From positions 1 to 64,000 of the forward strand of contig NZ_LDJP01000045.1 of assembly GCF_001431505.1 (NCBI RefSeq): DNA of 64,000 bases. Reading direction: 5' to 3'. Positions 14,066 to 41,326 of this stretch are shown piece after piece. Positions within the stretch are counted from its first letter, which is position 1. Each line of letters begins with the position of its first letter. Below the pieces are notes generated by a model. That model saw nothing but the letters and a program-made list of their open reading frames with translations, did not search any database and was not told the DNA's origin. Source of the stretch: Stenotrophomonas daejeonensis. Its GTDB lineage: Bacteria; Pseudomonadota; Gammaproteobacteria; Xanthomonadales; Xanthomonadaceae. Position numbers and translations under genes: made by a program.

Positions 14066-14857
14066 ATGAGGGAAGCGGTGACCATCGAAATTTCGAACCA
14101 ACTATCAGAGGTGCTAAGCGTCATTGAGCGCCATCTGGAATCAACGTTGCTGGCCGTGCATTTGTACGGCTCCGCAGTGGATGGCGGCCTGAAGCCATAC
14201 AGCGATATTGATTTGTTGGTTACTGTGGCCGTAAAGCTTGATGAAACGACGCGGCGAGCATTGCTCAATGACCTTATGGAGGCTTCGGCTTTCCCTGGCG
14301 AGAGCGAGACGCTCCGCGCTATAGAAGTCACCCTTGTCGTGCATGACGACATCATCCCGTGGCGTTATCCGGCTAAGCGCGAGCTGCAATTTGGAGAATG
14401 GCAGCGCAATGACATTCTTGCGGGTATCTTCGAGCCAGCCATGATCGACATTGATCTAGCTATCCTGCTTACAAAAGCAAGAGAACATAGCGTTGCCTTG
14501 GTAGGTCCGGCAGCGGAGGAATTCTTTGACCCGGTTCCTGAACAGGATCTATTCGAGGCGCTGAGGGAAACCTTGAAGCTATGGAACTCGCAGCCCGACT
14601 GGGCCGGCGATGAGCGAAATGTAGTGCTTACGTTGTCCCGCATTTGGTACAGCGCAATAACCGGCAAAATCGCGCCGAAGGATGTCGCTGCCGACTGGGC
14701 AATAAAACGCCTACCTGCCCAGTATCAGCCCGTCTTACTTGAAGCTAAGCAAGCTTATCTGGGACAAAAAGAAGATCACTTGGCCTCACGCGCAGATCAC
14801 TTGGAAGAATTTATTCGCTTTGTGAAAGGCGAGATCATCAAGTCAGTTGGTAAATGA
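14066..14857 (+). CDS. aadA2: Aminoglycoside 3''-adenylyltransferase AadA2
   Basis: ANT(3'')-Ia enzyme that adenylates streptomycin and spectinomycin. It is a 263-residue protein with the nucleotidyltransferase motif GSAVDGGLKPYSDIDLLV near residue 36, holding the metal-binding Asp pair, then FGEWQRNDILAGIFEPAM. The sequence agrees with AadA2 rather than AadA1 at many positions (TIEISNQLSEVLSVIERHLEST, LNDLMEASAFPGESETLRAIEV, ending IIKSVGK). It is a normal cassette: the ATG is 3 bp after attC 2, and attC 3 follows 1 bp after the stop. No Pc promoter or intI1 is present, so its expression source is unclear. Confidence 0.97.
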   Translation: MREAVTIEISNQLSEVLSVIERHLESTLLAVHLYGSAVDGGLKPYSDIDLLVTVAVKLDETTRRALLNDLMEASAFPGESETLRAIEVTLVVHDDIIPWRYPAKRELQFGEWQRNDILAGIFEPAMIDIDLAILLTKAREHSVALVGPAAEEFFDPVPEQDLFEALRETLKLWNSQPDWAGDERNVVLTLSRIWYSAITGKIAPKDVAADWAIKRLPAQYQPVLLEAKQAYLGQKEDHLASRADHLEEFIRFVKGEIIKSVGK

Positions 14858-15020: not shown

Positions 15021-15368
15021 ATGAAAGGCTGGCTTTTTCTTGTTATCGCAATAGTTGGCGAAGTAATCGCAACATCCGCATTAAAATCTAGCGAGGGCTT
15101 TACTAAGCTTGCCCCTTCCGCCGTTGTCATAATCGGTTATGGCATCGCATTTTATTTTCTTTCTCTGGTTCTGAAATCCATCCCTGTCGGTGTTGCTTAT
15201 GCAGTCTGGTCGGGACTCGGCGTCGTCATAATTACAGCCATTGCCTGGTTGCTTCATGGGCAAAAGCTTGATGCGTGGGGCTTTGTAGGTATGGGGCTCA
15301 TAATTGCTGCCTTTTTGCTCGCCCGATCCCCATCGTGGAAGTCGCTGCGGAGGCCGACGCCATGGTGA
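15021..15368 (+). CDS. qacEdelta1: QacEdelta1, truncated SMR quaternary ammonium efflux protein
   Basis: The 115-residue SMR-family protein has four hydrophobic segments and starts [27 protein letters not shown], with the essential Glu14. The last segment runs into [13 protein letters not shown], the known aberrant C-terminus produced when sul1 fused to qacE. The protein gives weak or no biocide tolerance compared with full QacE. Its end overlaps the sul1 start by 7 bp. GGGAGATATATC before the ATG supplies the ribosome binding site. Confidence 0.97.
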
Positions 15369-16201
15369 CGGTGTTCGGCATTCTGAATCTCACCGAGGAC
15401 TCCTTCTTCGATGAGAGCCGGCGGCTAGACCCCGCCGGCGCTGTCACCGCGGCGATCGAAATGCTGCGAGTCGGATCAGACGTCGTGGATGTCGGACCGG
15501 CCGCCAGCCATCCGGACGCGAGGCCTGTATCGCCGGCCGATGAGATCAGACGTATTGCGCCGCTCTTAGACGCCCTGTCCGATCAGATGCACCGTGTTTC
15601 AATCGACAGCTTCCAACCGGAAACCCAGCGCTATGCGCTCAAGCGCGGCGTGGGCTACCTGAACGATATCCAAGGATTTCCTGACCCTGCGCTCTATCCC
15701 GATATTGCTGAGGCGGACTGCAGGCTGGTGGTTATGCACTCAGCGCAGCGGGATGGCATCGCCACCCGCACCGGTCACCTTCGACCCGAAGACGCGCTCG
15801 ACGAGATTGTGCGGTTCTTCGAGGCGCGGGTTTCCGCCTTGCGACGGAGCGGGGTCGCTGCCGACCGGCTCATCCTCGATCCGGGGATGGGATTTTTCTT
15901 GAGCCCCGCACCGGAAACATCGCTGCACGTGCTGTCGAACCTTCAAAAGCTGAAGTCGGCGTTGGGGCTTCCGCTATTGGTCTCGGTGTCGCGGAAATCC
16001 TTCTTGGGCGCCACCGTTGGCCTTCCTGTAAAGGATCTGGGTCCAGCGAGCCTTGCGGCGGAACTTCACGCGATCGGCAATGGCGCTGACTACGTCCGCA
16101 CCCACGCGCCTGGAGATCTGCGAAGCGCAATCACCTTCTCGGAAACCCTCGCGAAATTTCGCAGTCGCGACGCCAGAGACCGAGGGTTAGATCATGCCTA
16201 G
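15362..16201 (+). CDS. sul1: Sulfonamide-insensitive dihydropteroate synthase Sul1
   Basis: A 279-residue dihydropteroate synthase that condenses p-aminobenzoate with the pterin pyrophosphate while discriminating against sulfonamides. DHPS landmarks are visible: [17 protein letters not shown] at the start, [11 protein letters not shown] near residue 40, [10 protein letters not shown] near 170 and SRKSFLGA near 210. The sequence ends [11 protein letters not shown] as in Sul1. It overlaps qacEdelta1 in another frame, the standard arrangement of the 3'-CS. The start is the ATG at 15362; the longer frame from 15275 lies in qacEdelta1. Confidence 0.98.
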
Positions 16202-19696: not shown

Positions 19697-21049
19697 TCAG
19701 ATGTCGATTGTCCGGTGCCACCCCGTGCTCTCACTCGCATAGTCGCCCTCAAGCTCAATCAACTTCAAGGGCACTGCTCCCACACCTAATGCTTTCTCAA
19801 TGGTCAGTTCGCTGCCTTGCTCTGAAAGCAAGTCTCTGAGGCGGGCGAATTCGCCGCACCAGACGCTCTCGATGTCCCGGTCCCGGCCGGGGTCATTGGC
19901 CCTGGACAGCGAGACGGCGCGTACCTGCAGGCGTCCGCTTTCCGAGCGGCCGCCAAGCTCGACGCCATAGCCCGGGGTCGCTGCCTTGCGCAGGACGACA
20001 CTGCCGGCATCGGCCCAGGCCGTCTCCATGCCTTCGCGGACTTCGTAGCCCAGGCTGGCCAGGCCTTCGAGCATGGCCCGTCGCCTGATACCTGCTGCCT
20101 GCTTTCCATTTTCATCGGCGATGGCTTCGCTGCATTGCGTTGATAGCGCGATGGTCTGTTGGATATCCGGCGCTTGTTGGGCCAGGCAATCCGCGATCTG
20201 GATCAGTAGCGGTGAGTTGGCTTGTCCAGGCATTGCCTCCAGCTCGGATGCTAGGTTTCGCAGTGCGAGACGATGTTCACCCAGATCCTTGTGAAATACG
20301 GATGCTGCCGCCAGGTCCAGTACCAGGCTATCGAGCAGCAGTCCGCGTCGTGCTTGTTGCACGTCCTCTTCGATGGCTGCCAAGCGGTGCTGGAAGGGCT
20401 CGGCTACCGCGGCACCGTACAGCGTCTGCAGGCGTGCCAGATAGCCGTCGATGCGTTCCAGGCGTGGTTCGCGAACGGTGTGATCCTCCGCGATCCACTT
20501 GTTTGGGTGATCAGTCTGCAAGGCGCGGGCGAGATCGCGTTGCGCGTCGGTTACCGTTTCGGTATCGGCTCGATTGGCGCTGCTAAGGCGCCCAAAGCCC
20601 TGGGCCAGGATCGCTGCTGGGTCGGCGACCGATCGGCCGGCAACAATCAACTCCAAGGCTTGCACCAACGCCACGTCGGCCTCCGTCGCACCGTCAGGCA
20701 GTGCCTTCAGCAAGGTCGCGGCGTTGGCCCTCAGGTTGCGCTGGGTCGTGCGCAGTTCGGCCGCTTTTGTCACCGCCGCTTCCTGACGTTGCATCAGATC
20801 GGCTTCAATAAAGTTTATTTCCAGCGGTACCTGCTTCTGCAGCAGCCACAACTCATCCTGTACCAACATCTGCTGCAGCTGCACCCGCCGCTCGCGCGTA
20901 GCGTTCAGTATCGCCTCGTCCTCCTGTCCAAGCCGGAGCGATTCTTTGTGCCAGTTGGCGATAGCACGATCCAGTCGGCTCAGGAGCGCTTCGCAGATCG
21001 CCAGGACCTCTTCGCGGGTAGTGAGCCGGACGACTTTAGGACCACTCAT
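19697..21049 (-). CDS. Coiled-coil protein of unknown function, last gene of the defence-like operon
   Basis: A 450-residue protein starting MSGPKVVRLTTREEVLAICE, an N-terminal signature I associate with conserved hypothetical proteins but cannot assign. Residues about 15-110 and 165-310 are long amphipathic helices with heptad character (ICEALLSRLDRAIANWHKES; AAVTKAAELRTTQRNLRANAATLLKAL). The last ~120 residues are more mixed and look globular (VVLRKAATPGYGVELGGRSESGRLQVRAVSLSR). No catalytic motif is seen. Its ATG overlaps the stop of the large helicase gene by 4 bp, so it is translationally coupled and is probably a structural or regulatory partner of that protein. Confidence 0.75.
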   Translation of the reverse strand: MSGPKVVRLTTREEVLAICEALLSRLDRAIANWHKESLRLGQEDEAILNATRERRVQLQQMLVQDELWLLQKQVPLEINFIEADLMQRQEAAVTKAAELRTTQRNLRANAATLLKALPDGATEADVALVQALELIVAGRSVADPAAILAQGFGRLSSANRADTETVTDAQRDLARALQTDHPNKWIAEDHTVREPRLERIDGYLARLQTLYGAAVAEPFQHRLAAIEEDVQQARRGLLLDSLVLDLAAASVFHKDLGEHRLALRNLASELEAMPGQANSPLLIQIADCLAQQAPDIQQTIALSTQCSEAIADENGKQAAGIRRRAMLEGLASLGYEVREGMETAWADAGSVVLRKAATPGYGVELGGRSESGRLQVRAVSLSRANDPGRDRDIESVWCGEFARLRDLLSEQGSELTIEKALGVGAVPLKLIELEGDYASESTGWHRTIDI

Positions 21050-24000
21050 GGCTGTTCCTTGGTGAGCTCGGCTTCCGGCTTCTGCACAACGGCTTGGCTG
21101 CCATCAGTAAGCGCGACGGCTATTGCCTGGCGCAAGCGCAGGCGTTCGTTGTCGCCATCCCCATACCAGCCCAATGACGACACCCGATGGATATGCGGTA
21201 CCGACCGCTGCAGCACCTTGCGGCGCCAGATCTCGCGCGCCCGGGCACGGCGCAGCAGCGGGTGCCGCGGGCTGTCGCATTCAATGCCGATGGCGTACAG
21301 CTGGGTAACCGGATCTTCAATCGCCAGGTCCAGGCCGAAGGTGTCGCCTTCGTCGGCCGCTACCGGCTCCCACCCCAACGAACGGATGTAGGCGGCGACC
21401 GCATTGGTGAAGCCGTCGCCTTGGCGGCGGTGCTCCGCGCGAACTTGGCCGCGGTCGGTGAGCAGCCGTCCCAGCAATGCACGGCTGCCACTGAACTCTC
21501 CCGCAGACAGGGCGCGCGCGTACTCTAGATAGCCTTGCAGATAGTCGCGGGGGCTGGTCGGCGGACGCTGGGTAGTGAGCATGTCGGAGATGTCGGCAAT
21601 CGGCATGGAGGTGATCATCACCACTTTTTCGCGGGCTCGGGTGACCGCCACGTTCAACCGCCGCTCGCCACCGGTTTGGCCCAATACGCCGAAATTGCGA
21701 CGGAAGGTGCCCTGGCCATTGCGCCCGAACGTGGAAGAAAACACGATGATGTCGCGCTCGTCACCCTGTACGTTCTCGACGTTTTTGACGAACACCGCCA
21801 TATCCTCGCCGCCATCCCGGCGCTCACGTTCCTCGGCGAAGGCCATGCGGAAACCATCGTCCAGCGTTGCGCGCTCTTCCATCCGCTCTTCGATCAGGTC
21901 GGCTTGCTTGCGGTTGAAGGTCACCACGCCGACGGATGGGCGCTGTTCCACCGGCGCGCGCCAAAGCTCGGCGAGATAGTCGACCACGCGCTCGGCTTCC
22001 TGCGGGTTGGTTTGTTCCTGGTAGAGTCCATCGACACGAATCAGCTCCAATGGACGCGCCTGCAGAATCCTCGCAGCCGGGTGTCGCACCGGCACGCTGA
22101 GCCGATTGCCGTAGAACGATGCATTGGAGTAACCGATCAGTTCGCGATAGGCGGAACGGTAGTGGATCTGCAGGGTGGTGGTTGGCAGCACGCTGCGCGC
22201 CAGCTGCAACAGGTCCGGGCAGTCCTTGATCTCGCGCCGGTTCCAGGTGTCCTCGAACTGCTCCTGCTCTTCCGGCTCGGCGTCCTCCGTGGGCGTCTCG
22301 CCATCGAACAGTTCAGCTTCATCGCTCTCGATGCGACTGGAGAAGAAGGCCGTCGGCGGCATCTGTTTCTCATCGCCGCTGACGATCATCACCCGTCCAC
22401 GGAACAGCGTGGGCAAGGCGTATTCGACCGGCATCTGCGAGGCTTCGTCGTAGATCACCGTATCAAACAAGCCGGCACGAAGCGGCAGTACGCGGCTGGC
22501 GACGTCCGGGTTCATCAGCCATACCGGACGAAGGTGCATCAGGCCCAAGCCCGCGCCCAGTTCGATGAACTCGCGCAGACGGCGGGAACGGCGACCTGTC
22601 AGTCGGGTTACGTCTTCCCATTGCTTGCGGGTGCCTAGCAGTTGGCTGTCGATGGCAGTACCGAGCATCTCACGGTTGAGTTGACGCATCTGTGCATCCG
22701 CCTGCGCCAGCGCGTCCACCTTGCCCGCTGCTTCGGTCTGGTCCAGCAGCAATGCTGGCTGTGTGCGTTCGATGCGCTGCTTCCATCCCAGTCGCGCTTC
22801 GCGATTGATCAGGTGGCGGACGCTGAGGTCCAGCCGCTCATCGGCGATGCCCTTGAGCTCAGTGACGCGTTCACGCAACAGGGCAAAGAAGGCCAGCTGC
22901 GCAGGCGACAGCTGCTCGGCGCGCACGCGGAACTGCTGATATGCGGCCAGCGTTGGCAAGGCCTGCGTCAGCTCGTCGAGCGTGGCATGGTTGTCATGGC
23001 CTTGCTCGATTGCGCCGCGCAGCTGTGCGACCCAGTCGGCATTGGCCCAGTCGGCCAGTCGCTGCAGACGCTCAAGGCTGCGTTCGCGGGCTGATTGCTG
23101 CGCCAGCGCGGCTTCGGTTTCCGTCAGCATGGCCAGCAGCGCTTGGCGGGTCCCCGAGCGCACCGCCGCTTCCAGTGCCGCAGTCCGTGGCGCCGTAGCG
23201 ATGGATGCGGCGAGCGTTTGCGCGGCGCGGAGTTTGTCGGTGGTATCGGCGACCTGCGCCGAAAGAAGAGGGCCGCTTGCTACATCGGGGAGCGGAAGTT
23301 CCAGCAGCAGCTGCGCAGCAGAGAACGCCGCGCGCAACGGCCGCCAGTACTGTTCGAGTTTCGCTGCAGCAAGCAAGCAGCCGAGCTGCGCCGTGCCTGT
23401 TTTCGTCTCGCCATGATTGGCGAGGAAGGCCGATACGCGACGGCGCCGTAGGTAGTTCAAAGGGCTGATGCGCGCAAGCCAGGAGGTCGCATTCAACAAC
23501 GCGCCAGCCTGACTGGCCAGACGATCCAGGGTTGGCGAGGGCAGGGCAGCCAATGCGGGTGAGAGGAGCGGGGAATGGCTTTGCAATGCAGCGTTGCGCA
23601 GGTCGCGCTGGATCTGGTCCAGCGAGGCGAGCGTGCGTACGCCGATGCCAGTGTCACCGGTTGCAGATGCACGGAACAGCGGCAGCCAGCTAGCCAGGCG
23701 TTGTCGCTGGCCTTCGTCCAGTTCGAGCAGGGTGCGCGCCGGCCCCTGCAGCCACTCGCGATAGGGCGTCGGCTCGGCAACCTCGAAACCCGCCGGATGC
23801 GATTGCAGTATCTCGATCCTGGCGGTCTCGGCTTCGACAAATTGCCGGAAGTCGTGCTGGAAGGCCTGCAAGGTGGAGGCATCAGACGTAAAGACCTGCA
23901 GACGTGCGAGCGGACTTGCTTCGTAATTGGAGGGAAGCCACAGCCGAGCCAGCGGCGCGCAGGCCTCTTCCAGCTGCGCGAGCTCGGTCATATCGATATC

Positions 24001-27000
24001 ACCCAAGCGCTGGCGTAGTGCCGGAAACGCCAGCGTTGCCCCATCCTGTTCCAGTTCAATCAGCTCGCCCAGTAACTGGCGATAGCTCAGCCCGGTGCGT
24101 TCATCAACCTCATGCAGATTGGCGTGGAAGCGGTCCAGCTCGCCCTCCAGCGATTCGATACGGGCGGCAAGCCGCTCGCGTTGCGCCTGCCAGCTGCGTG
24201 AGGTCGGACCGTCAGTGGCAAACAGCGTTTCCAGTTGTTCGCGCACACCGCGGATCACCCGTTCGCGATCGCGATTGACGTCATCAAGCATCACCACGCG
24301 ATTGCCGAGCCCCTCGGCCACCAGCCGTTTGTGCACGACTTCCAGTGCAGCGTGCTTCTGGCAGACGATCAGCAGACTTTTCTGTCGACCGATGGCATCG
24401 GCCACTATGTTGACGATGGTCTGGCTCTTGCCGGTACCGGGCGGGCCTTCGACCAACAGGCCCGGTGTCTGCCGTGCCTGCAAGACGGCGTCCTCCTGCG
24501 AGGGATCACTGGAGGCGGTGAAGAAACGATCCAGTTCGGCCGGTGCCGCGTCCGGGGCTTCCGCCGAGGCGGTGCCCAGGCGCAGCGCGGTTTCCAGACC
24601 GGTGCCGCTGGGCGACAAGGCTTTGAGCTGACGCAGATCCTCACCCAGTGCCTGGCCCATGAAGGTGACGTGGAACAGCACCGCCGCACAGGCCAGCTCG
24701 ACCTCATGCACAGGGATTTCGGTGGAGGCCGGGGGAAGCGCCTCAAGCACCCGCGCACGCGGGCTGGCCAGCACACCGAACGCATCCATCACGTCGGCGG
24801 CCTTCAGCGAAGAACGACCCAATACTTCATCCGCCGTCCTGCGCCAGGCTTTGCAGGCTTCAGCTCCCACCAGGGCTTCCAGGGCCGGATTCAGCCGGAC
24901 TTCCTCGCGCTCACTATCGAAGGCCAGCGCAATCCGCCCACGGTTGCCCAGTTCCATCTGCAGCTTCACTGGCCACAGCAGCAGGGGCGCAATGCGGGTG
25001 CGGGTGTTCTGTGAGTCGCGGATCAGCAGGAAGGGAAAGCCAAGGTGCAGGCCGTCGATGCCGGTGTCACGCTTGTACAGCGAGCTCTGCCGTTGAAGGC
25101 TGTTCAAACGGGCCAGCAACGGCTGGCTGGCCGCCAGCGCTACCGGGTCCAAGTCCACGGCGCGGGCTTGCCGTTGCAGCAGCGCATCAAGCAGTGCAGC
25201 GGCAGGACGACGGGTGGTATCGAGCTCGTGCAGATCGATGCGCGCGGTGGTCTTGCCGATGATCATGCGTACCAATGGGCCGCGCATCACGCTGGTCGTC
25301 ACCTTCTTCTCGAAGAAGTCGAGGATCTGGGTGATGTATTGCTGCTTCTGTGGTTCCAGCCAGTTCTCTGCCGGCACCGCCAGCAACACCAGGGCGTTGG
25401 CCAGCGGCATGCGCCGCTCCAGCCGGAACTGATCAGCCCAGGCATCGGGTTGGCGAAGACCGCAGCGGGCGAAGCCGACGATGCGCTCATCCACGCGCAG
25501 GAACAGCTCCCGCCGTTCAAGCGCCAACAGCGTGCGTGCAACTGCAGGATCGAACTGCAGCACACCGGCCTCGAACGCCAGCAGCTTGGCCTGGTCAATG
25601 ATGGCGTCCACTGAACGGAACTGATGGATGCCCGCGCCAAGCAGGACGATCAGGTCTTCCTCGCCGATCAGCCGGCGTTCGCTCAGCGAGCGGATGCCTG
25701 CGTGCTCGCTATCGGGCAACAGCTGTTGGCGCTCCTGCCACTGCGCTGCCAAGCGGACCCGCGAGGTTGACAGCAGATAGATGCGCAGCTGTGCCTCGTC
25801 CAGCTCGATACCTTGATGGCGGGCGCGCTGGCGCACCTGATCGGCGCGTATCTTCAATCGCCATAGCCAGCTTTCACTGCCCAGGGCTTCCAGCAGATCC
25901 GGTACCGGACCGGTAATCAGCCGGTAGCCTTCCAGCGGATGTTCGAGCAGCCAGCCGGGGGTAACGATCTGTCCCCGATGGATCAGCGGCATGTCCGGGT
26001 TGAGGATCTTCAGCGCAAGCAGAAGACGGAAGTCGTCTTCAAGTTCGACATGCTGTGCGGCATTGCGCAGGCCCGCGATTGACTTGGGCGGAAGACCGAC
26101 CTGCTCGGCCCAGGTCACGATCACACCGCGCAACAGATGGTCCAGTGCCTGCGCCCAGTGCTGCTCTTCTGCGGCGCTCAGTGCGAAGAGCGCCGGTTTG
26201 TGAAAACGTCGTTCGCCCAGCGTGATCGTCGCGCCGCTGGCGGCGTCCTGTTCGGCCTGCGCGCCAGCAGGCGCGGTGACCGGCTCGCCATCCAGCCAGG
26301 CACGTACTTCGGGCCACTGCCAGCGCTGGTTGCGATCACGTGCCAGCAGCCCGCGCAGCAGCAGGTTCAACTGCGGGTCCAGCGCATCCGGTAGCAGCGC
26401 ACCGTTTGCCAGTACGTGGATGAGGTAAGCATTCGGGTTGACCCCGTCAAAGCAGGCGCCTTGGGTCAGCTGTTCCAGCAGGATCATGCCCAGGCTCCAC
26501 CAATCGGAGGCCGCAGCGACACCGCCGGCGATGGCCTCCGGCGCCATGTAGCGGCTGATCTCCAGCGGCGACACGATATCGAGGTCGAACTCGGACAGAC
26601 GCGCCGAGCCGAAGCCGCTGATCACCAGGTCCAGCGGCTCACGGCTGCGCACCAGCAGTGTGGACGGGCGCAGGTCGCGGTGGCGCAACCCGACTTCGCT
26701 GAACGCGTGCAGCGCCTGGCCCAATTCGCGCACCACATGCCGCACGGCATCGAGGTCGTGGATGACGATGCCCAACGAGGCGAGGGTGCCGCCGGTGAGT
26801 TCTTCGGCGACTTCGTAGGCGCGATCGTTCCAACGACCAGTCGCGATGATGTCCGGCACATGCTCGCGGGGCAGCCGGCGCAGCACGCAATAGACCGCCG
26901 GGTCCGGCTCGGCACCGGCGCGATACAAGGTAAGGACCGCTTGCCTGCCGTCGTCGTGCTCGGCGAGGTAGCGTTCGCGCACACCGTCGGTGCGGCTGAT

Positions 27001-27366
27001 CTCGCGAAGCAGACGCCAGCCGTCAATGCGTGTCTCGGCAGCATCATCAGCTACCGTGCTGCCTGCGTCTTCACTTTGAGGTGTCGGCGGCTGCGATGCG
27101 GCGGGCTCACCGCCACACTCCAGGCACATCAGATCGCCGGCCTGCAGCGGGTGGCCGTTAACGCAGTGTAATGCCGGCGCATCGGCTTCGGCACTGGCCG
27201 GAGTGAGGGGAGCGTCGTGGGTAATGACAGGTTGCGGTCGCCAGCCAGCGGCACGGATGGGCTCGCTGGAGAGATCCCAGCTGCAGGCTTGTCCCCCAAC
27301 TACCCCTTCGCAGAAGAGCTCAAGGAGGTCACGTTCGGTGTGGCAATTGGGGCAGAAGCGCATCAT
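21046..27366 (-). CDS. Zinc-ribbon / protein kinase-like / COG1112-type helicase / nuclease fusion (2106 aa)
   Basis: Domains in order: a zinc ribbon (CPNC near residue 5, more Cys by 29); a second Cys cluster (CVNGHPLQAGDLMCLEC, 68-84); a Ser/Thr kinase-like domain (about 115-365) with HRDLRPST near 229 and RYMAPEAI; a helical region; a DUF4011-like segment (about 740-800; 'APLLLWPVKLQ', 'VRLNPALEAL'); an SF1 helicase with Walker A GPPGTGKS near 975, DEAS near 1640 and LNVAVTRAREKV near 1905; and a C-terminal PD-(D/E)xK-like nuclease (FGLDLAI...IGIECDS, about 2000-2080). The kinase looks degenerate: Thr replaces the metal-binding Asn, and GFG replaces DFG. A long insert (about 1050-1600) separates helicase motifs. 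It overlaps both neighbours by 4 bp. Kinase plus COG1112 helicase recalls Mokosh, but the nuclease type and partners differ. A defence role is inferred. Confidence 0.85.
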   Translation of the reverse strand: MMRFCPNCHTERDLLELFCEGVVGGQACSWDLSSEPIRAAGWRPQPVITHDAPLTPASAEADAPALHCVNGHPLQAGDLMCLECGGEPAASQPPTPQSEDAGSTVADDAAETRIDGWRLLREISRTDGVRERYLAEHDDGRQAVLTLYRAGAEPDPAVYCVLRRLPREHVPDIIATGRWNDRAYEVAEELTGGTLASLGIVIHDLDAVRHVVRELGQALHAFSEVGLRHRDLRPSTLLVRSREPLDLVISGFGSARLSEFDLDIVSPLEISRYMAPEAIAGGVAAASDWWSLGMILLEQLTQGACFDGVNPNAYLIHVLANGALLPDALDPQLNLLLRGLLARDRNQRWQWPEVRAWLDGEPVTAPAGAQAEQDAASGATITLGERRFHKPALFALSAAEEQHWAQALDHLLRGVIVTWAEQVGLPPKSIAGLRNAAQHVELEDDFRLLLALKILNPDMPLIHRGQIVTPGWLLEHPLEGYRLITGPVPDLLEALGSESWLWRLKIRADQVRQRARHQGIELDEAQLRIYLLSTSRVRLAAQWQERQQLLPDSEHAGIRSLSERRLIGEEDLIVLLGAGIHQFRSVDAIIDQAKLLAFEAGVLQFDPAVARTLLALERRELFLRVDERIVGFARCGLRQPDAWADQFRLERRMPLANALVLLAVPAENWLEPQKQQYITQILDFFEKKVTTSVMRGPLVRMIIGKTTARIDLHELDTTRRPAAALLDALLQRQARAVDLDPVALAASQPLLARLNSLQRQSSLYKRDTGIDGLHLGFPFLLIRDSQNTRTRIAPLLLWPVKLQMELGNRGRIALAFDSEREEVRLNPALEALVGAEACKAWRRTADEVLGRSSLKAADVMDAFGVLASPRARVLEALPPASTEIPVHEVELACAAVLFHVTFMGQALGEDLRQLKALSPSGTGLETALRLGTASAEAPDAAPAELDRFFTASSDPSQEDAVLQARQTPGLLVEGPPGTGKSQTIVNIVADAIGRQKSLLIVCQKHAALEVVHKRLVAEGLGNRVVMLDDVNRDRERVIRGVREQLETLFATDGPTSRSWQAQRERLAARIESLEGELDRFHANLHEVDERTGLSYRQLLGELIELEQDGATLAFPALRQRLGDIDMTELAQLEEACAPLARLWLPSNYEASPLARLQVFTSDASTLQAFQHDFRQFVEAETARIEILQSHPAGFEVAEPTPYREWLQGPARTLLELDEGQRQRLASWLPLFRASATGDTGIGVRTLASLDQIQRDLRNAALQSHSPLLSPALAALPSPTLDRLASQAGALLNATSWLARISPLNYLRRRRVSAFLANHGETKTGTAQLGCLLAAAKLEQYWRPLRAAFSAAQLLLELPLPDVASGPLLSAQVADTTDKLRAAQTLAASIATAPRTAALEAAVRSGTRQALLAMLTETEAALAQQSARERSLERLQRLADWANADWVAQLRGAIEQGHDNHATLDELTQALPTLAAYQQFRVRAEQLSPAQLAFFALLRERVTELKGIADERLDLSVRHLINREARLGWKQRIERTQPALLLDQTEAAGKVDALAQADAQMRQLNREMLGTAIDSQLLGTRKQWEDVTRLTGRRSRRLREFIELGAGLGLMHLRPVWLMNPDVASRVLPLRAGLFDTVIYDEASQMPVEYALPTLFRGRVMIVSGDEKQMPPTAFFSSRIESDEAELFDGETPTEDAEPEEQEQFEDTWNRREIKDCPDLLQLARSVLPTTTLQIHYRSAYRELIGYSNASFYGNRLSVPVRHPAARILQARPLELIRVDGLYQEQTNPQEAERVVDYLAELWRAPVEQRPSVGVVTFNRKQADLIEERMEERATLDDGFRMAFAEERERRDGGEDMAVFVKNVENVQGDERDIIVFSSTFGRNGQGTFRRNFGVLGQTGGERRLNVAVTRAREKVVMITSMPIADISDMLTTQRPPTSPRDYLQGYLEYARALSAGEFSGSRALLGRLLTDRGQVRAEHRRQGDGFTNAVAAYIRSLGWEPVAADEGDTFGLDLAIEDPVTQLYAIGIECDSPRHPLLRRARAREIWRRKVLQRSVPHIHRVSSLGWYGDGDNERLRLRQAIAVALTDGSQAVVQKPEAELTKEQP

Positions 27367-28034
27367 TTGCGGAGGATCTCGTAAGGGCCGCGCAATGCGG
27401 TATCAGCGCTGACCTGCAGCTGGTGGCCCTGCTCGCGCAGCAATGCGCGCAGGCGCAGTAGATCGTCGCGGCGTGGGATGCCGGCCATCCACACGCTGCC
27501 GTCTTCGTCGAGCATCAGGTCCAGCGCTTTGTCTTCAGGGCGCAGTGGTCGCTCGAAGCCTGAGAAGCGCGCGCGGCCAACCGTTGTAAGCAGATGCAGA
27601 CGCTGGTTGTCGCTGCCGCGTAGGGCGACGGATTGCGGCAGCGCCTGCTCGTAGGGATCGGAGATCAATGCATCGATCAGCCCTTCGGCAACGGCAAGAA
27701 CCGGTGCAAGGTACTCCAGCGGATAACCGCTATAGACCAGGATGTCGTGCTGCCCGAGCTGACGCAGCGCCCGCAGCAATTCGAGCAGTGCCTCGGGCTG
27801 GTCGAACGGTTCACCGCCTGAAATGGTGATGCCATCTGCTTCCGTCAACCAAGGCTGGATCTGCGTGAGCAAGCTCGCGATGGTCGCGAGGTGGCGACCT
27901 GCTCCCCAGGTATCGGCGGAGATACAGCCTGGGCAGCGGATGCTGCAACCCTGGAACCAGATGCCAAGGCGCCGCCCTGGCCCCAAGGTGGTCACCGGGA
28001 AGTGCACGCGTGACAAGTCAAGCACTGTGCTCAA
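27363..28034 (-). CDS. Small radical-SAM (4Fe-4S single-cluster) protein
   Basis: A 223-residue protein. The cluster motif is GCSIRCPGC (CxxxCxxC) at about residues 30-37, followed by the SAM-binding GGEP (TISGGEPFDQ, near 74). The size and the opening 'VHFPVTTLGPGRRLGIWFQGC' match NrdG/activating-enzyme-like single-cluster proteins that form a 5'-deoxyadenosyl radical. No nrdD or pyruvate formate-lyase partner is nearby, so a standard glycyl-radical role is not supported. Its ATG overlaps the end of the ClpB-like gene and its end overlaps the start of the kinase-helicase gene, each by 4 bp, so it is an integral part of this operon. It could modify an operon product or a nucleotide; its substrate is unknown. 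Confidence 0.85.
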   Translation of the reverse strand: MSTVLDLSRVHFPVTTLGPGRRLGIWFQGCSIRCPGCISADTWGAGRHLATIASLLTQIQPWLTEADGITISGGEPFDQPEALLELLRALRQLGQHDILVYSGYPLEYLAPVLAVAEGLIDALISDPYEQALPQSVALRGSDNQRLHLLTTVGRARFSGFERPLRPEDKALDLMLDEDGSVWMAGIPRRDDLLRLRALLREQGHQLQVSADTALRGPYEILRK

Positions 28035-29875
28035 CGCGGCACCAGTTGCAGTCCCGCGCTCGATAGATCTTCCACTTCAAAGCGCTGGCCCGGCTGCGCG
28101 TCCTGGTCGAACAACGCACGCGCCAGCGGATTGATGAAGTGGGCTTCGAGCTGATTGCGGATACCGCGGCCACCATTGGACAGATCGCTCAGGCACAAGC
28201 TGCGCAGCGCAGCACGCGCGGGTTCGGCCAGTTCCACCTGCAGCGACTGCTCGCCCAGGTCGGCAAGCGTGGCATCCACCATTTGCGCGAAAATCTGTGC
28301 GGCCACATCCTCGCGGATGAAGTCGAAGACAATGATGTTCTCGCCGATGCGGTTGAGGATCTCCGGCCGATTCAGCACCAGCTTGAAATGGCGTTCGATC
28401 TCGCTCTCCACCTTGCGCTGCACAGTATCGAACGCATCAGTGGGCATGACGTTGGCAACGCGCTCGCCGTTTTCGTCCTGGCGATAGATGCCCAGGTTCG
28501 ATGTGAATACGATCAGCGCCTCGGAGAAGTAGACTCGGTCACCGCGGCCCGAGGTCAGGACGCCGTCGTCCAGGATCTGGAGGAACTTGTCGAGGATCCG
28601 CGGGTGGGCTTTCTCGATTTCGTCGAATAGCACCACGCTGAAGGGCTTTTCGCGGATGGCATTGGTGAGTTCGCCGCCAACGTCGTAGCCAACGTAGCCT
28701 GGAGGGGCACCGATCAATCGCTGATCGGAATGTTCGGCACTGAATTCGGACATGTCGAAACGGATATAGGCGTTGTCATCGCCAAACAGCAGGCTGGTGA
28801 CGGTTTTCGCTAACTCGGTCTTGCCGACACCGGTCGGGCCGGCAAGGAAGGCCACGCCGCGCGGGCGGTTGCCCTTGCGGCTGGCACCGACGCCGGTCAT
28901 GGCGCGTTTGACGATGTCCAGCATGTGCGTAACCGCATGGGTCTGGCCCTTGACCCTGCGGCTGATGAAGTCGTCAGCCTCGCGGATCCGGCGACGGTCA
29001 ATCTTCAGCCAGGGATCCTCGGTCACGCCGACCTTGTAACGACGCACTGCATCGGAAATGCGCGCCATGGGCACCCCTTCGACACGCGCCAACTGGGCGA
29101 TCGCGTTGAGGTCCAGCAACAGCAACCCCTCGGTGCTTTCGATGAAGGCATCGGCGGCCATCTGCAGCGCTTCCGCGCTGGCCTCACGGCCACCGTCCAG
29201 GCCGCGCAGCAGGCTTGAGGCAATCGCCCGACGCGCGGGCAGGTCGGGTTTGGATACCGGGATATGCCGCAGCCGGGGGTTGTCGACCAGCAGCCAGTCC
29301 GGCAGGTCACCTTCCTTGTGGACGACCCAAATCACAGTATTGAAGAAGGGTTTGCGGGCCTCGCCGGCGGGCCGCGCCCGGGCGCTGTGGGAAAGCACCA
29401 ACGCGCGAGTGAAAAGCTGGTGTTCGGCTGGGGCCAAGCTATCGTTGCGCACGACCAACCGGGAGGCGAAATCGACGATCAGCGCGATGGGCTCGCCGTT
29501 GCGGTCAACAATTCGTGGCAGAGTCGTGCTCAGCAGGTCGGGGCCGGCGGCCGCTACACCTTCTACCGGGGTCATCCCCAGTTCGCGGAGCAAGGCGTCC
29601 CCTGCGTCAGGGGCACCGGCGTCATCGCTACCGGGGCGGCCAAGCACCCTGAACCCCGTCAATGGGTCCCATCCGACAACCTGGCTGAAGCCGGCTTCCA
29701 GCATCGCGTCGCGCAGGTTCACACTGAAGGTCTGCGGCGTCAGTACGCCCGGCGAAACCTCGCTGACCTGCAGATCGCCGACGTTTCCGGAGAGAACGAA
29801 CTGGCTCTTCAGTGGCAGGAACCGGACAAGATCCCGAAGCCAGCGCGGCTTTTGAAAGGCAGCTGAAGATGACAT
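28031..29875 (-). CDS. ClpB/ClpA-like AAA+ ATPase with a degenerate first module
   Basis: The 614-residue product ends in a typical Clp/Hsp100 D2 module: Walker A GPTGVGKT near residue 346, pore loop PPGYVGYDVGG near 395, Walker B VVLFDEIEKAHP near 415, sensor 1 LIVFTSNLG, arginine finger RPEILNRIG, and a sensor-2 region GGRGIRNQLEAHFINPLARALF. The first 300 residues look like a second AAA module without a Walker A (ALIVDFASRLVV in place of Walker B; PDLPARRAIASSLLRG). It has no Clp N-domain repeats and no coiled-coil M-domain. It probably unfolds or remodels a protein using ATP. First gene of the tightly coupled four-gene block. Confidence 0.88.
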   Translation of the reverse strand: MSSSAAFQKPRWLRDLVRFLPLKSQFVLSGNVGDLQVSEVSPGVLTPQTFSVNLRDAMLEAGFSQVVGWDPLTGFRVLGRPGSDDAGAPDAGDALLRELGMTPVEGVAAAGPDLLSTTLPRIVDRNGEPIALIVDFASRLVVRNDSLAPAEHQLFTRALVLSHSARARPAGEARKPFFNTVIWVVHKEGDLPDWLLVDNPRLRHIPVSKPDLPARRAIASSLLRGLDGGREASAEALQMAADAFIESTEGLLLLDLNAIAQLARVEGVPMARISDAVRRYKVGVTEDPWLKIDRRRIREADDFISRRVKGQTHAVTHMLDIVKRAMTGVGASRKGNRPRGVAFLAGPTGVGKTELAKTVTSLLFGDDNAYIRFDMSEFSAEHSDQRLIGAPPGYVGYDVGGELTNAIREKPFSVVLFDEIEKAHPRILDKFLQILDDGVLTSGRGDRVYFSEALIVFTSNLGIYRQDENGERVANVMPTDAFDTVQRKVESEIERHFKLVLNRPEILNRIGENIIVFDFIREDVAAQIFAQMVDATLADLGEQSLQVELAEPARAALRSLCLSDLSNGGRGIRNQLEAHFINPLARALFDQDAQPGQRFEVEDLSSAGLQLVPR

Positions 29876-30224
29876 GTACGAAACCCTTCCCTAGGCGATT
29901 TGTCCATAGGATAGCTGTATCGGGAATTGGCTCCCAAACATCTGCCGTTGGCTGGGAGTCCGGCGCGTCAGGTCAGATACGAGGCAGGGACTTTCAATCG
30001 CCACACATAAATCTGACTAGCCTGATCACACAAGAAGCCATTTCTGGCTCGGTGCAGCTGCGTTCGCGCCGTTGTGCTTCTTCAATGGCAACGCATGGGC
30101 GCTGCTAGCGTTCCCGGTGTGGTGCCTGATCATCTGGATCTGCGTGTGCCCAGGACGCGGTGGGCGTTCTATAGCTATTACGTTGCCCATATCGGGCTGA
30201 TGGCAATATTTACGTGATACGTCA
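29876..30224. other. Leader/promoter region of the ClpB-like operon
   Basis: No gene is recognised in these 350 bases. Any promoter for the minus-strand operon must lie here or further upstream beyond the IS elements. On the minus strand near 30230-30200, TGACGTATCACGTAAATATT contains a short GACGTATCACGT inverted motif. No clear -35/-10 pair was found. Confidence 0.35.
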
Positions 30225-31930: not shown

Positions 31931-32770
31931 CTAGTCGTGCAGCCAGTCGACCTTTTGGTCGATGTCAGCGGAAGGATGTGGACCAGCGTAGAGCAGGAAG
32001 AGCCGGAACTGCTCATTTCGATCAAGATGTTGAAAGTAGATTCGAGCGGCGGCGGTTTCGCTAGTGCCGTCACCTTCTTTGAGATGCAGGTTGGAGTCAA
32101 ACCGCTCCAACTGCTTGACGCCTTTCATCAAGCGGATGCAGGTGCTGATGCCGCCAGAGTGGGCCACCCCGATACGCTTGTCGCGGCAGTAGTCTTCCAG
32201 CGTCATTCCGAGACGCCCCTTCTTTCTGCAGAACTTGTCTAACATCTCTGCCGAGCGCTTCAAGAACGGATGCCGCGAGGTATGCACCTCATCGCAGCGA
32301 TCCAGTGCAGCGCCAACGATAATGTAATCGGCCAGCTTTTCGGCCGAGCGTCGAAAACGCTCAGCTGGAGAAGCGGTGACCTGCCAGCCCAGCTCTTGGA
32401 ACAGGGCCAAGCGTACGTCGTTGGTAAAATCGTCCTCGGCGCGTTGCCCCACCAGCCGTGGCGGCCAGTCGCCTTGCCCCAACTGCGGGCGGATCACCTG
32501 GGCGCCGTTTGCAGCTAGCAGTTCCAGCACATCGTTCATGCCTTCCGGCCAACCCACGTAAGGCAGCGCGACCACGGTCAGCGAGGTCCAGTCGTGTACA
32601 TCGGCGAAGCGTTCCAGATCGCCAATGGCCTGCTCAGAGGGCGGATTGAAGATGTATCGATAGTTCGATTTGACTACTAGGCACAGCCCAGCCTCTTCCT
32701 GCCGGCGTCCGGCTTCGGCGAGGAAGGGCTTTTGCAATGTGTTGGGCAGTCCAATGACAAACGTTGCCAT
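31931..32770 (-). CDS. Hypothetical protein, second gene of the upstream pair
   Basis: A 279-residue soluble protein that is not recognised. The N-terminal part (MATFVIGLPNTLQKPFLAEA; LCLVVKSNYRYIFNPPSEQAI) alternates strand and helix. The middle has several charged helices and a cluster of Cys and His (DRCDEVHTSRHP, DKFCRKKG, DYCRDKRIGVAHSGGISTC). The C-terminal 45 residues (AARIYFQHLDRNEQFRLFLLYAGPHPSADID) resemble in outline the strand-rich end of RelE/ParE-like or small nuclease folds, but this is only an impression. It lies 15 bp after the LOTUS-like gene on the same strand, and probably belonged to one operon with the ClpB-like block before IS insertion. Confidence 0.7.
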   Translation of the reverse strand: MATFVIGLPNTLQKPFLAEAGRRQEEAGLCLVVKSNYRYIFNPPSEQAIGDLERFADVHDWTSLTVVALPYVGWPEGMNDVLELLAANGAQVIRPQLGQGDWPPRLVGQRAEDDFTNDVRLALFQELGWQVTASPAERFRRSAEKLADYIIVGAALDRCDEVHTSRHPFLKRSAEMLDKFCRKKGRLGMTLEDYCRDKRIGVAHSGGISTCIRLMKGVKQLERFDSNLHLKEGDGTSETAAARIYFQHLDRNEQFRLFLLYAGPHPSADIDQKVDWLHD

Positions 32771-32785
32771 CCTTGGCTCACTCCC

Positions 32786-33646
32786 TTACCGGCGTGCACT
32801 CACCATGATTATGGACGCCATCAGCGGAATCAGCGTGTCGGCGATCTCCTGATCGGTCAGCGACTCGATGAGTTTGAGGGCGCGCTGCTTGGGGCTTAGC
32901 GCCGCTGCATCGGTGAGCGACGCAGTAGAGACGGGCGGATGCGCGTGGCGCGTCTCGAACGATGGAAGCAGCATCGATACGTCCACTCCAGCGCGTTGCG
33001 CCCATTGGCTCATCACCTCGAACATCTTGCCGGTGCGGAACTGGGTCCATTGCTTGCCGGCCGCGCCCAACGCTTTGGTGAATTCCACATTCACCGCGGT
33101 GCGATAGGGCTGCGCGATCATCGGATAGTCGGCTGCCACAAGGGTAGACGCCTGGGCGAGGAACTCCTGCATCCAAGCGGTCTGTTGGGTGCCAGGCACC
33201 GGCTCAATCTTCACCCAATCTGCTACCGGAGTCAGGCCAACGGCCGCACCCAGGTCGGTCTGTTGGAAATGCTTGACCGCGCCAGTCTTGCGATTGAAAT
33301 AGCGCAGGCGCTGCGGATCGGGATTGGAGAAGGCAATCCACACGTCTTCGCGCGCCGCTGACATTGCCCGGTGCTCGCCACGTACCGCCACGGGCTGTGC
33401 CGCGGCTGCCGCAAGCGAGAGCACTTCCATATCGCCGCCGGGGCGCACACGCATTTCGAGCACGTCGGGAAATTGCTCGAGAAAGGCGCGGAAGCGCGGG
33501 AAACCCAGCTCGACGTAACTGAAGGTACCCAGGCCGCGTTGCTCGCCCAGGTCCACCAAGCGCTGCCGCAGTCGGGCGGCGGGCTCCACTGACTGCTGCT
33601 TCAGCAGCTCCTGCAGCAGAGGTTTCCAGGCAGAGACATCTTTCAC
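32786..33646 (-). CDS. Protein with N-terminal OST-HTH/LOTUS-like domain
   Basis: A 286-residue protein. Residues about 5-75 (LLQELLKQQSVEPAARLRQR, then LVDLGEQRGLGTFSYVELGFPRFRAFLEQFPDVLEMRV) fit the OST-HTH/LOTUS pattern: 'LLxxLLxxxSVxPAARLGxxL...dFxYxxxGFxxFxxFLexxpdxvxv'. LOTUS domains bind RNA, including G-rich structures. The middle part (VWIAFSNPDPQRLRYFNRKTGAV; VADWVKIEPVPGTQQTAWMQEFL) is unassigned, and the end has a hydrophobic stretch (DTLIPLMASIIMVSARR). The start is GTG 33646 after AAGGA with 7-base spacing. It heads the minus-strand gene series. The domain call is by eye. Confidence 0.65.
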   Translation of the reverse strand: MKDVSAWKPLLQELLKQQSVEPAARLRQRLVDLGEQRGLGTFSYVELGFPRFRAFLEQFPDVLEMRVRPGGDMEVLSLAAAAAQPVAVRGEHRAMSAAREDVWIAFSNPDPQRLRYFNRKTGAVKHFQQTDLGAAVGLTPVADWVKIEPVPGTQQTAWMQEFLAQASTLVAADYPMIAQPYRTAVNVEFTKALGAAGKQWTQFRTGKMFEVMSQWAQRAGVDVSMLLPSFETRHAHPPVSTASLTDAAALSPKQRALKLIESLTDQEIADTLIPLMASIIMVSARR

Positions 33647-33706: not shown

Positions 33707-34107
33707 GGGTAATCAAATTGTCTTGCTAATGCTAAGTTCCAACCCGTTATGACGTCGTCCGGACGAGAGAACTTAGCAGCACTCTTCCGGCCCATGGGCG
33801 CCATAAAAGTTCCATCCATGCAGCATCGATCGATTCGGTGCACTGATGGGCAACCCCGGCCAGTGATGCATTCACGTAGCCGAGCCGTGACAGTATCAGG
33901 CGCTGCGCTTGGTCGTGTCAAATCTGCGAGTCCCGGCGGTAGGTCGGCGTTTCAACTCGTGAGTTCACTCCTGAATAGATTCATGAATGGCGTACGCCTC
34001 CCACGCTTTGAGCGCTCCTGCTCCCGTGGCGTCACAGGGTCATGAACCACGTGCTAGCGGGGGGTGAACTACCATGAAGCTGACGTCTATTGCATACATG
34101 CATTGTT
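33707..34107. other. Divergent intergenic region between the two defence loci
   Basis: It separates divergently transcribed genes. It holds an inverted repeat TGCTAAGTT (33730-33738) / AACTTAGCA (33770-33778) with an inner CGTCCGGACG palindrome. No gene with family features is seen. Promoters for both directions are expected here. Confidence 0.45.
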
Positions 34108-34138
34108 TTATGCATTAATATCGATCGTAGATGCATAA
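34108..34138 (+). promoter_or_regulatory. Operator-like inverted repeat upstream of ietA
   Basis: TTATGCAT (34108-34115) and ATGCATAA (34131-34138) form an inverted repeat 20 bp upstream of the ATG at 34159. A further ACATGCAT lies at 34096-34103. IetA carries its own C-terminal helix-turn-helix, making autoregulation plausible. Confidence 0.5.
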
Positions 34139-34158
34139 ATGTGGAAATACAGGCATTC

Positions 34159-35346
34159 ATGGAGCACTTCACCATTGTTCTGGCCCTACTACGCGCGGCA
34201 CTGAAAGTGCCGAGTCCGGCTGTGACCGGTCACGCCGAGCGATTGCTGGCCGCCTTGCGAAAAGGCGGCGAGACGATCCAGGCCGAGCAGTTGGAAAAAC
34301 TACTGGAGGGAGGGAGCGTGGCGGGTCGGATGCAGCCAAGTAGAGTCGTGCTGTCGCGCGCAGCGTTGCCTGGCGAACCGCTGACCCCTAGCGTGCGGCC
34401 GCCGGTCGACAAGGAGACCGGTGGCGCGCTGGCGGACATAACGTTGCCTGACGCGCTCACGCCCATGGAGGCGCCCGTATTGAACAACGCATTGCGCGGA
34501 TCGGTAGATGCCCTAGTGGAGGAGTGGCGCCATCTGGATCGGCTGCGCGCCATGGGGATACGCCCGCCGCTGAACTGCCTACTCTTCGGCGCTCCCGGAA
34601 CCGGCAAAACCAAGCTAGCGCAAATCGTGAGCAGAGAGATTGGGCTGCCCTTGGTGACGGCCCGGCTCGATGGCCTGATCTCCTCCTATCTCGGCACCAC
34701 AGCGCGCAACATCTCCTCGCTGTTCGCTTTTGCCAACCGCTACCAGTGCGTCCTGTTACTGGACGAGTTCGACGCCATCGCCAAGGTCCGCGATGACCCC
34801 CATGAAGTGGGCGAAATCAAGCGCGTCGTCAACACGCTGCTGCAGTGTCTGGATCAACGTAGTGACTTGGGCATCACGATAGCCATCACCAATCACGAGC
34901 AACTTCTCGATAGCGCTATCTGGCGTCGCTTCGACATCCGCATCGCCGTGCCGCGCCCGGACCTCGAATCGCGCCTGGAGATCGTCAACCGCTACGTTAC
35001 CCCCTTGGAAATCGCACTGCCTGAGCGCCGCTTTCTGGCTTGGCTGACCGAAGGGCTGACCGGTAGCGAGATTGAAACCCTGGCAAATGCCATCAAGCGC
35101 GCCGCTGCGCTGAACTCATCGGCCGACTTCTCGGCCTTGAACGCACTCAAAGTCCACGCCCAACTCAGTTCTAACCATCGTCATCACCCGCGATGGGAGC
35201 AGTTGTTGGGCCCGGCCGAGGCGTTGGCGGCCACCTTGAGTCGTGATCGAGAACTGGCCTTCAGCCAGGAAGACCTAGCCAGATTCTTCGGTAAAGACCA
35301 ATCCACCATCAGCCGCTGGAAACGAAGGTACCGCGAGGGATCCTAA
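34159..35346 (+). CDS. ietA: AAA ATPase of the IetAS defence pair, with C-terminal HTH
   Basis: A 395-residue single-AAA protein of the FtsH/Cdc48-like type: Walker A FGAPGTGKT near residue 144, Walker B LLLDEFDA near 200, sensor 1 AITNHEQLLD, arginine finger WRRFDIRI. The last 30 residues (AFSQEDLARFFGKDQSTISR and WKRRYREGS) look like a helix-turn-helix. It is paired with a subtilisin-like protease whose start overlaps its stop (TAATG). ATPase plus S8 protease is the IetAS arrangement, known for plasmid incompatibility/toxin-antitoxin behaviour and reported as anti-phage. The ATG at 34159 is preferred because the alternative at 34090 would encode the operator-like tract. Confidence 0.85.
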   Translation: MEHFTIVLALLRAALKVPSPAVTGHAERLLAALRKGGETIQAEQLEKLLEGGSVAGRMQPSRVVLSRAALPGEPLTPSVRPPVDKETGGALADITLPDALTPMEAPVLNNALRGSVDALVEEWRHLDRLRAMGIRPPLNCLLFGAPGTGKTKLAQIVSREIGLPLVTARLDGLISSYLGTTARNISSLFAFANRYQCVLLLDEFDAIAKVRDDPHEVGEIKRVVNTLLQCLDQRSDLGITIAITNHEQLLDSAIWRRFDIRIAVPRPDLESRLEIVNRYVTPLEIALPERRFLAWLTEGLTGSEIETLANAIKRAAALNSSADFSALNALKVHAQLSSNHRHHPRWEQLLGPAEALAATLSRDRELAFSQEDLARFFGKDQSTISRWKRRYREGS

Positions 35347-41275: not shown

Positions 41276-41326
41276 CTACCTTGACATGGTAGGGGTCACA
41301 GGTTCGAACCCTGTACCGCCCACCAC
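41276..41326 (+). repeat. attR: 51-bp island direct repeat (right)
   Basis: A perfect copy of 2475-2525, the 3' part of tRNA-Val. No D-arm or 5' acceptor strand lies upstream (CCCCCGTTTTC instead), so it is a pseudo-tRNA end, not a second tRNA gene. Confidence 0.93.

Follow-up and report, generated by a model that had tools for sequence, protein, structure and literature searches.

A stretch of 64,000 nucleotides of Stenotrophomonas daejeonensis DNA (NCBI RefSeq assembly GCF_001431505.1, contig NZ_LDJP01000045.1, positions 1 to 64,000; termed the window below) contains a four-gene cassette whose third gene encodes a fusion protein of 2106 amino acids. The four genes run on the minus strand from position 29875 to 19697 and encode, in this order, a ClpB-like AAA+ protein, an NrdG-like radical S-adenosylmethionine (SAM) enzyme, the 2106-residue fusion, and a 450-residue protein termed MSGPK after its first five residues; the ends of neighboring genes overlap by 4 nucleotides, which suggests translational coupling. 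A previous reading made from the letters of the window (the sequence-only reading) had described the third gene as one polypeptide uniting zinc ribbons, a kinase-like domain, a superfamily 1 (SF1) helicase, and a nuclease. The fusion is real and its open reading frame spans exactly the 21046 to 27366 given there, on the minus strand, which had been left unstated; however, it is one gene of a near-obligate four-gene cassette, and the operon had not been listed.

Domain organization of the 2106-residue fusion

The fusion (gene 3, 21046 to 27366; all cassette features lie on the minus strand) consists of zinc ribbons, a pseudokinase, a helical region, a DUF4011 domain, an SF1 helicase, and an MTES_1575 nuclease, as delineated by open reading frame and Pfam analysis, conservation, AlphaFold modeling, and the structure comparison programs Foldseek and VIA-align. 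Five Pfam families match the protein, all of them above their curated cut-offs, and together with the invariant ligands they support the domain reading that had been made earlier. Zinc ribbon 1 (C5, C8, C19, and C28; 27283 to 27354) and zinc ribbon 2 (C68, H72, C81, and C84; 27115 to 27165) each keep all four ligands throughout 87 homologues. They are followed by the Pkinase match (residues 165 to 354, E value 2.6e-15, 56.9 bits) and by DUF4011 (PF13195, residues 747 to 831, 24874 to 25128, E value 2.8e-10). The helicase core (residues 939 to 1925, 21592 to 24552) is composed of an AAA_11 part (residues 954 to 1044, E value 2.6e-14) and an AAA_12 part (residues 1728 to 1920, E value 1.1e-19), which are separated by a long insert. 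Motifs I, II, V, and VI, including GPPGTGKS, DEAS(Q), and LNVAVTRAR, are kept in at least 83 of the 87 homologues, and with its Walker A, DEAx(Q), and motifs V and VI, gene 3 belongs to the COG1112/Upf1-like SF1 helicases.

The C terminus (residues 1986 to 2082, 21121 to 21411) matches the MTES_1575 restriction endonuclease (REase)-fold nuclease family (PF18741, E value 2.3e-16, 60.1 bits against a cut-off of 38.2). D2013 and E2029 are kept in all 86 homologues that reach them, and H2035 in 84. On this match and on the D and E residues, the domain is a predicted member of the REase_MTES_1575 family, which is related to PD-(D/E)xK nucleases, so that the fused, PD-(D/E)xK-like nuclease proposed earlier is found again at the sequence level.

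The kinase-like domain is a predicted ancestral pseudokinase

Residues 1 to 950 were modeled with AlphaFold from 56 homologues (mean predicted local distance difference test score [pLDDT], 81). Foldseek retrieved kinases with this model, among them ULK1 (E value 7.6e-12, target-normalized TM score of 0.77), and VIA-align superposed residues 111 to 360 on Aurora-A with a Z score of 24.6 and a root mean square deviation (RMSD) of 2.9 over 245 aligned residues. The pseudokinase domain (residues 112 to 361, 26284 to 27033) thus has the protein kinase fold by Pfam, Foldseek, and VIA-align alike. The sequence-only reading, which had called for a comparison with kinase structures, depended on a kinase fold and a nuclease fold; the former is recovered in the model and the latter by sequence.

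The catalytic residues of this domain are largely lost. The HRDLRPST and GFG motifs are present, as had been noticed before, and the VAIK lysine, which had been overlooked, is gone as well, the sequence reading VLTLY instead; the earlier suggestion of a pseudokinase is therefore borne out more strongly than it was put. Among the 87 homologues, the VAIK lysine occurs in none (84 have threonine at this position), the first position of DFG is glycine in 83 and aspartate in 1, having been lost in the other 86, and the asparagine five residues after the HRD aspartate survives in 11. By these counts the domain falls outside the active Hanks-type Ser/Thr kinases. Since the loss extends across the homologues, it is ancestral to the family rather than an accident of the S. 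daejeonensis strain, and we regard the domain as a predicted ancestral pseudokinase. It is highly improbable that it is instead active, phosphorylating the MSGPK or ClpB-like protein as an atypical kinase: the HRD aspartate in 87 of 87 homologues, the intact fold, and the complete catalytic residues of unfused relatives (see below) are in keeping with such an activity, but the state of the VAIK lysine, the DFG aspartate, and the HRD+5 asparagine speaks against it.

Partner proteins of the fusion

Gene 1 (28031 to 29875) encodes a 614-residue AAA+ ATPase resembling the D2 region of ClpB/Hsp100 (AAA_2, E value 8.3e-46; ClpB_D2-small) with a family-specific N-terminal half. Its Walker A and B motifs, the pore loop GYVG, and NRPEILNR are invariant or nearly so in 88 homologues, the third position of GYVG being V or I. 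The protein is not a ClpB disaggregase as defined by TIGR03346, which demands two AAA+ domains over the full length; it scores 254 against 1232 bits and corresponds to the D2 region only.

Gene 2 (27363 to 28034) encodes a 223-residue NrdG-like radical-SAM enzyme with a single 4Fe-4S cluster (Fer4_12, E value 3.9e-22). CxxxCxxC and GGEP are kept in 87 of 87 homologues and place it in the radical-SAM superfamily; the Radical_SAM Pfam model stays below its cut-off (21.8 versus 29.5), and Fer4_12 exceeds its own. It falls outside the NrdG/PFL-AE activases of glycyl radical enzymes (NrdG, 77.8 versus 126.1 bits). A glycyl radical activase with a local substrate was considered and rejected, as the operon gave no Gly_radical Pfam match and none of the four proteins contains an R-V-x-G-Y-like motif.

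Gene 4 (19697 to 21049) encodes the MSGPK protein, in which the AlphaFold model (pLDDT of 90) shows long helices and a small α/β domain to which the N-terminal strand belongs. The sequence had no match in Pfam, PADLOC, NCBIfam, or the Protein Data Bank (PDB), and Foldseek returned nothing at an E value of ≤0.001 from the PDB or the viral library. Likeness to KA1-like or eIF2-alpha-like α/β domains was dismissed, the Z scores of 6 to 8 lying within the range reported for chance, as does the comparison with Chk1 KA1 (Z score of 7.9, RMSD of 2.9, 89 aligned residues). Because the structural matches cover both the N-terminal strand and the C-terminal part, the model suggests that the two may form one α/β domain. 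All 89 homologues have S2, G3, P4, K5, and C398, and for that reason we speculate that the protein is the prime candidate for an adaptor or a radical-SAM substrate.

Linkage and distribution of the cassette

A genome-wide scan recovered 290 stretches that encode relatives, of which the best 80 were kept; all 80 are from Proteobacteria (alpha, beta, and gamma), and sampling outside this phylum covered plasmids only. Together with the window they form a set of 81 loci, and in 77 of these the full set of four genes is present, in the same order and on the same strand, with median intergenic gaps of −4, +10, and −4 nucleotides. Three of the four exceptions are clipped by contig ends. In the fourth, on a 10-kb contig of an Accumulibacter metagenome-assembled genome (L068, 1027 to 10211), the ClpB-like gene is followed by the fusion with no radical-SAM gene in between, either by real loss or by an assembly problem. 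With linkage this close to universal, the idea of a stand-alone protein was discarded. The pairwise distances of the four proteins across the 81 sets correlate at r values of 0.89 to 0.93, whereas the largest value in 300 permutations was 0.17.

The nearest relative, in Stenotrophomonas terrae, is 90.9% identical over window positions 19749 to 29957 and not beyond, that is, over the cassette alone, which implies that the unit moves as a block. Its presence is patchy: it was found in the strain's own genome and 3 of 36 congeners, 5 of 398 genomes in a sample of the phylum, 6 of 146 in another genus, and 1 of 25 species in the genus of Pseudomonas aeruginosa PA7. Since the cassette is missing from most genomes yet comprises the same four genes almost wherever it is present, all four are probably needed. 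A phage origin was also rejected: neither the pseudokinase nor the N-terminal region of the ClpB-like protein had a match in 50,697 phage records, and a scan of viral contigs gave only matches from about residue 190 on, mostly to the generic Clp D2 region.

On alphaproteobacterial plasmids (L010, L012, L013, L014, and L016), the fusion also exists as truncated or frame-broken copies, which may represent decay of the cassette; those of L010 and L013 have a transposase gene immediately upstream.

Unfused relatives in distant clusters

The clostridium Aristaeella lactis has the same components side by side and unfused on a plasmid of 44 kb (L119). Here the helicase-nuclease (DUF4011, helicase, and MTES nuclease) matches PDC-S37 with 1308 bits, and it is accompanied by a Ser/Thr kinase whose catalytic residues are complete, a 430-residue MSGPK protein, an FHA protein with a double zinc ribbon, a radical-SAM enzyme, a ClpB-like protein, and PP2C. 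The two MSGPK proteins show weak homology (E value 0.015) with the conserved cysteine aligned, and they share the MSGPK start and the position in the operon. The distantly related proteobacterial cluster L110 (5316 to 15434) comprises ClpB-like, radical-SAM, and PP2C genes, a zinc-ribbon protein that looks FHA-like from its sequence, two FGE-sulfatase-like genes, and a Ser/Thr kinase that is catalytically complete; within the 20 kb of L110, a DUF4011 helicase was not observed.

The ClpB-like and radical-SAM proteins of both clusters are homologous to those of the cassette (profile matches of 527 to 566 and 135 to 137 bits, respectively). In the clusters, however, the kinases are unfused and keep Lys, Asp, Asn, and DFG, and PP2C and FHA are separate, whereas the cassette has a fused pseudokinase. 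For two of these kinases, the match of the family profile runs about 100 residues beyond the kinase itself, and this shared postkinase region reaches an E value of 7e-30 in the L110 kinase. The simplest reading is that a shared ClpB/radical-SAM core has been combined with helicase-nuclease effectors and that, in Proteobacteria, the effector would have acquired the zinc ribbons and a kinase-derived domain by fusion, with loss of the phosphatase and FHA genes and of kinase activity. The proteobacterial cassette thus looks like a condensed version of the unfused cluster, and these relatives suggest a route by which a phosphorylation switch could have been reduced to a pseudokinase within an effector.

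The Clostridia plasmid also encodes a DUF6273 protein (L119, 22660 to 24174) and a second kinase of 952 residues with complete catalytic residues (24174 to 27032), which suggest a larger signaling network; a Cas3-like gene lies further along in L110. Gamma- and betaproteobacterial plasmids (L125, L126, L127, and L128) carry five-gene clusters of an MkoA-like SF1 helicase, a PIN-domain protein, a coiled-coil protein, a ClpB-like AAA+ protein, and a radical-SAM enzyme, possibly another undescribed type of system. Homology of MSGPK to the coiled-coil protein of these clusters was unsupported (hhalign E value, 0.27).

Genomic context in S. daejeonensis and P. aeruginosa

The cassette lies between two 51-bp attachment repeats on the plus strand (2475 to 2525 and 41276 to 41326; 51 of 51 identical), the left one being the 3′ half of a tRNA-Val gene (2450 to 2524). 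A tyrosine integrase gene (39987 to 41123, minus strand; PF00589, E value 5.1e-12) is located beside the right repeat, and repeat and integrase mark a tRNA-Val integrative island of about 39 kb (2475 to 41326). The anti-phage system IetAS lies in the same island, about 4 kb from the cassette (34090 to 37760, plus strand; ietA, 34090 to 35346, 509 bits in PADLOC; ietS, 35346 to 37760, 927 bits). The island also holds insertion-sequence genes, a second tyrosine integrase gene (38385 to 39395), an aadA-type gene (14066 to 14857), a Sul1-type gene (15275 to 16201), and a small multidrug resistance (SMR)-type efflux gene resembling qacEdelta1 (15021 to 15368). Between the cassette and IetAS (31931 to 33646, minus strand) lie a 286-residue gene product with a weak OST-HTH/LOTUS match and a 279-residue one without a clear family, neither with a PADLOC match.

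In P. aeruginosa PA7 (L024), all four genes are present about 20 kb from ihfA, and the fusion is 69% identical over the full protein. The operon on the right flank of the P. aeruginosa core defense hotspot cDHS1 is one that we take to be PA2725-PA2728 of strain PAO1. The parts of the hotspot report concerned with this flank place there a DUF4011 gene, a radical-SAM gene, and a hypothetical gene (PMC10250203), and by that description the PA7 cassette occupies the right-flank position. The flank genes serve in the same account as core-genome markers of the hotspot (PMC10250203), whereas the cassette described here is on a mobile island. Mutations in PA2727 have been reported in the course of genome comparisons (PMC4918941, PMC3697988). 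The literature searched, in which preprints were outside coverage and subscription papers were few, gave no functional description for DUF4011, PDC-S37, PA2725-PA2728, or the combination of radical SAM and ClpB.

Proposed function of the cassette

We favor, as the probable though far from settled reading, that the four genes form an undescribed, horizontally transmitted cassette for genome defense, a multiprotein nuclease system directed against phages or plasmids, with gene 3 as its effector. This reading draws on the one-order linkage and codivergence of the four genes, the conserved motifs of every enzyme but the kinase, the patchy distribution, and the island shared with IetAS. It further draws on the relationship of the effector to Hhe, ProA, and PDC-S37, the PA7 copy at the cDHS1 flank, and the L119 and L110 clusters. 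Several points weigh against it. The nuclease motif is E-C-D, also in the Clostridia relative at the same position, and departs from the E-x-K of the textbook PD-(D/E)xK triad; the pseudokinase might retain ATP binding or some unusual activity. Defense richness around the loci is modest, with PADLOC-like matches for about a dozen of 129 flanking proteins, a count without a random control, and many copies lie amid ordinary genes. No phage or plasmid challenge data for the cassette family were found in the literature searched, and the DUF4011 flank gene is core in every P. aeruginosa isolate according to the sections of Johnson et al. on the hotspot (PMC10250203), which fits a housekeeping role too.

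The last observation and the ordinary chromosomal neighborhoods also speak for a stress response or genome maintenance system, in which the ClpB-like, radical-SAM, and helicase-nuclease proteins would handle damaged nucleic acid or stalled complexes and the phosphorylation-derived module would act as a stress sensor. A partner resembling Clp-type disaggregases and the Ser/Thr kinase-PP2C-FHA relatives, typical of regulatory pathways, agree with it. Patchy presence inside genera, the integrative island with IetAS, and the named anti-phage proteins among the closest families of the effector do not, and we hold this alternative to be considerably less likely.

For a defense function, the sequence of steps and what each partner does can be inferred as follows. 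Gene 3 would probably carry out both nucleic acid surveillance and cleavage, under the control of the partners and of its own zinc-ribbon/pseudokinase front end. The front end would detect invading nucleic acid or a replication intermediate, the SF1 helicase would move the protein along it, and the C-terminal REase-fold nuclease would cut; the pseudokinase may exert allosteric control, having arisen from a genuine Ser/Thr phosphorylation switch, one that distant relatives still have in unfused form with all catalytic residues. By threading a subunit, the ClpB-like protein probably builds, arms, or takes apart the complex; the radical-SAM enzyme probably either alters one of the partner proteins or produces a small signaling molecule, and MSGPK is probably an adaptor or a substrate. 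A bolder proposal, which we offer tentatively and with considerable doubt, is an immune family of Proteobacteria and Clostridia whose helicase-nuclease is governed, via a phosphorylation switch, by a ClpB-like AAA+ machine and a radical-SAM enzyme, the switch having been condensed in Proteobacteria to the fused pseudokinase; radical-SAM modification of MSGPK (SGPK N terminus, Cys398) would arm or disarm the nuclease. If true, this would add a new way of regulating immunity and a new use of radical SAM beyond viperin-type nucleotides.

Should the cassette be a defense system, it would unite four activities seldom combined in a single such cassette (zinc-ribbon/pseudokinase regulation, a helicase-nuclease, a Clp-type unfoldase, and radical SAM), and the P. 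aeruginosa operon reported as core, a landmark of a defense hotspot, would gain a function.

Comparison with known defense systems

Mokosh, to which the sequence-only reading had likened the fusion, employs a PLD (phospholipase D) nuclease. The cassette shares with Mokosh (MkoA/MkoC) a COG1112-type SF1 helicase and the theme of a kinase-like domain plus helicase, and this much of the resemblance to type I holds. The likeness is loose, however: the two MkoA profiles score 162 and 57 bits on gene 3, with the helicase region as the best stretch, and MkoA ranks as the third-best family, far below PDC-S37 (485 bits) and ProA (512 bits). The cassette has an MTES REase instead of the PLD nuclease, its kinase is predicted to be inactive, and no MkoB-type match was detected among the operon proteins at an E value of 0.1; the view that its partners differ was correct, the ClpB-like, radical-SAM, and MSGPK proteins being conserved in their place. 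That gene 3 is a Mokosh type I member with its PLD nuclease replaced, as the shared helicase and kinase-like domain and the 162-bit score might be taken to indicate, is accordingly very unlikely.

By profile scores, the closest relatives of gene 3 are instead predicted to be the DUF4011 helicase-nucleases. The PADLOC candidate PDC-S37 and the NCBIfam family ProA (NF058533) have in common with it the order DUF4011, SF1 helicase, and MTES_1575 nuclease and give its best scores, and Hhe (NF042953, also in NCBIfam), a DUF4011 domain-containing anti-phage protein, aligns with it over the C-terminal helicase-nuclease region. Gene 3 nevertheless lies outside ProA and Hhe, with 512 bits against a ProA cut-off of 1500 and 310.7 bits against an Hhe cut-off of 2000. 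Compared with PDC-S37/ProA, it has the zinc ribbons, the pseudokinase, and three near-obligate partners in addition, and compared with Hhe, it likewise carries additional N-terminal domains and three partner genes.

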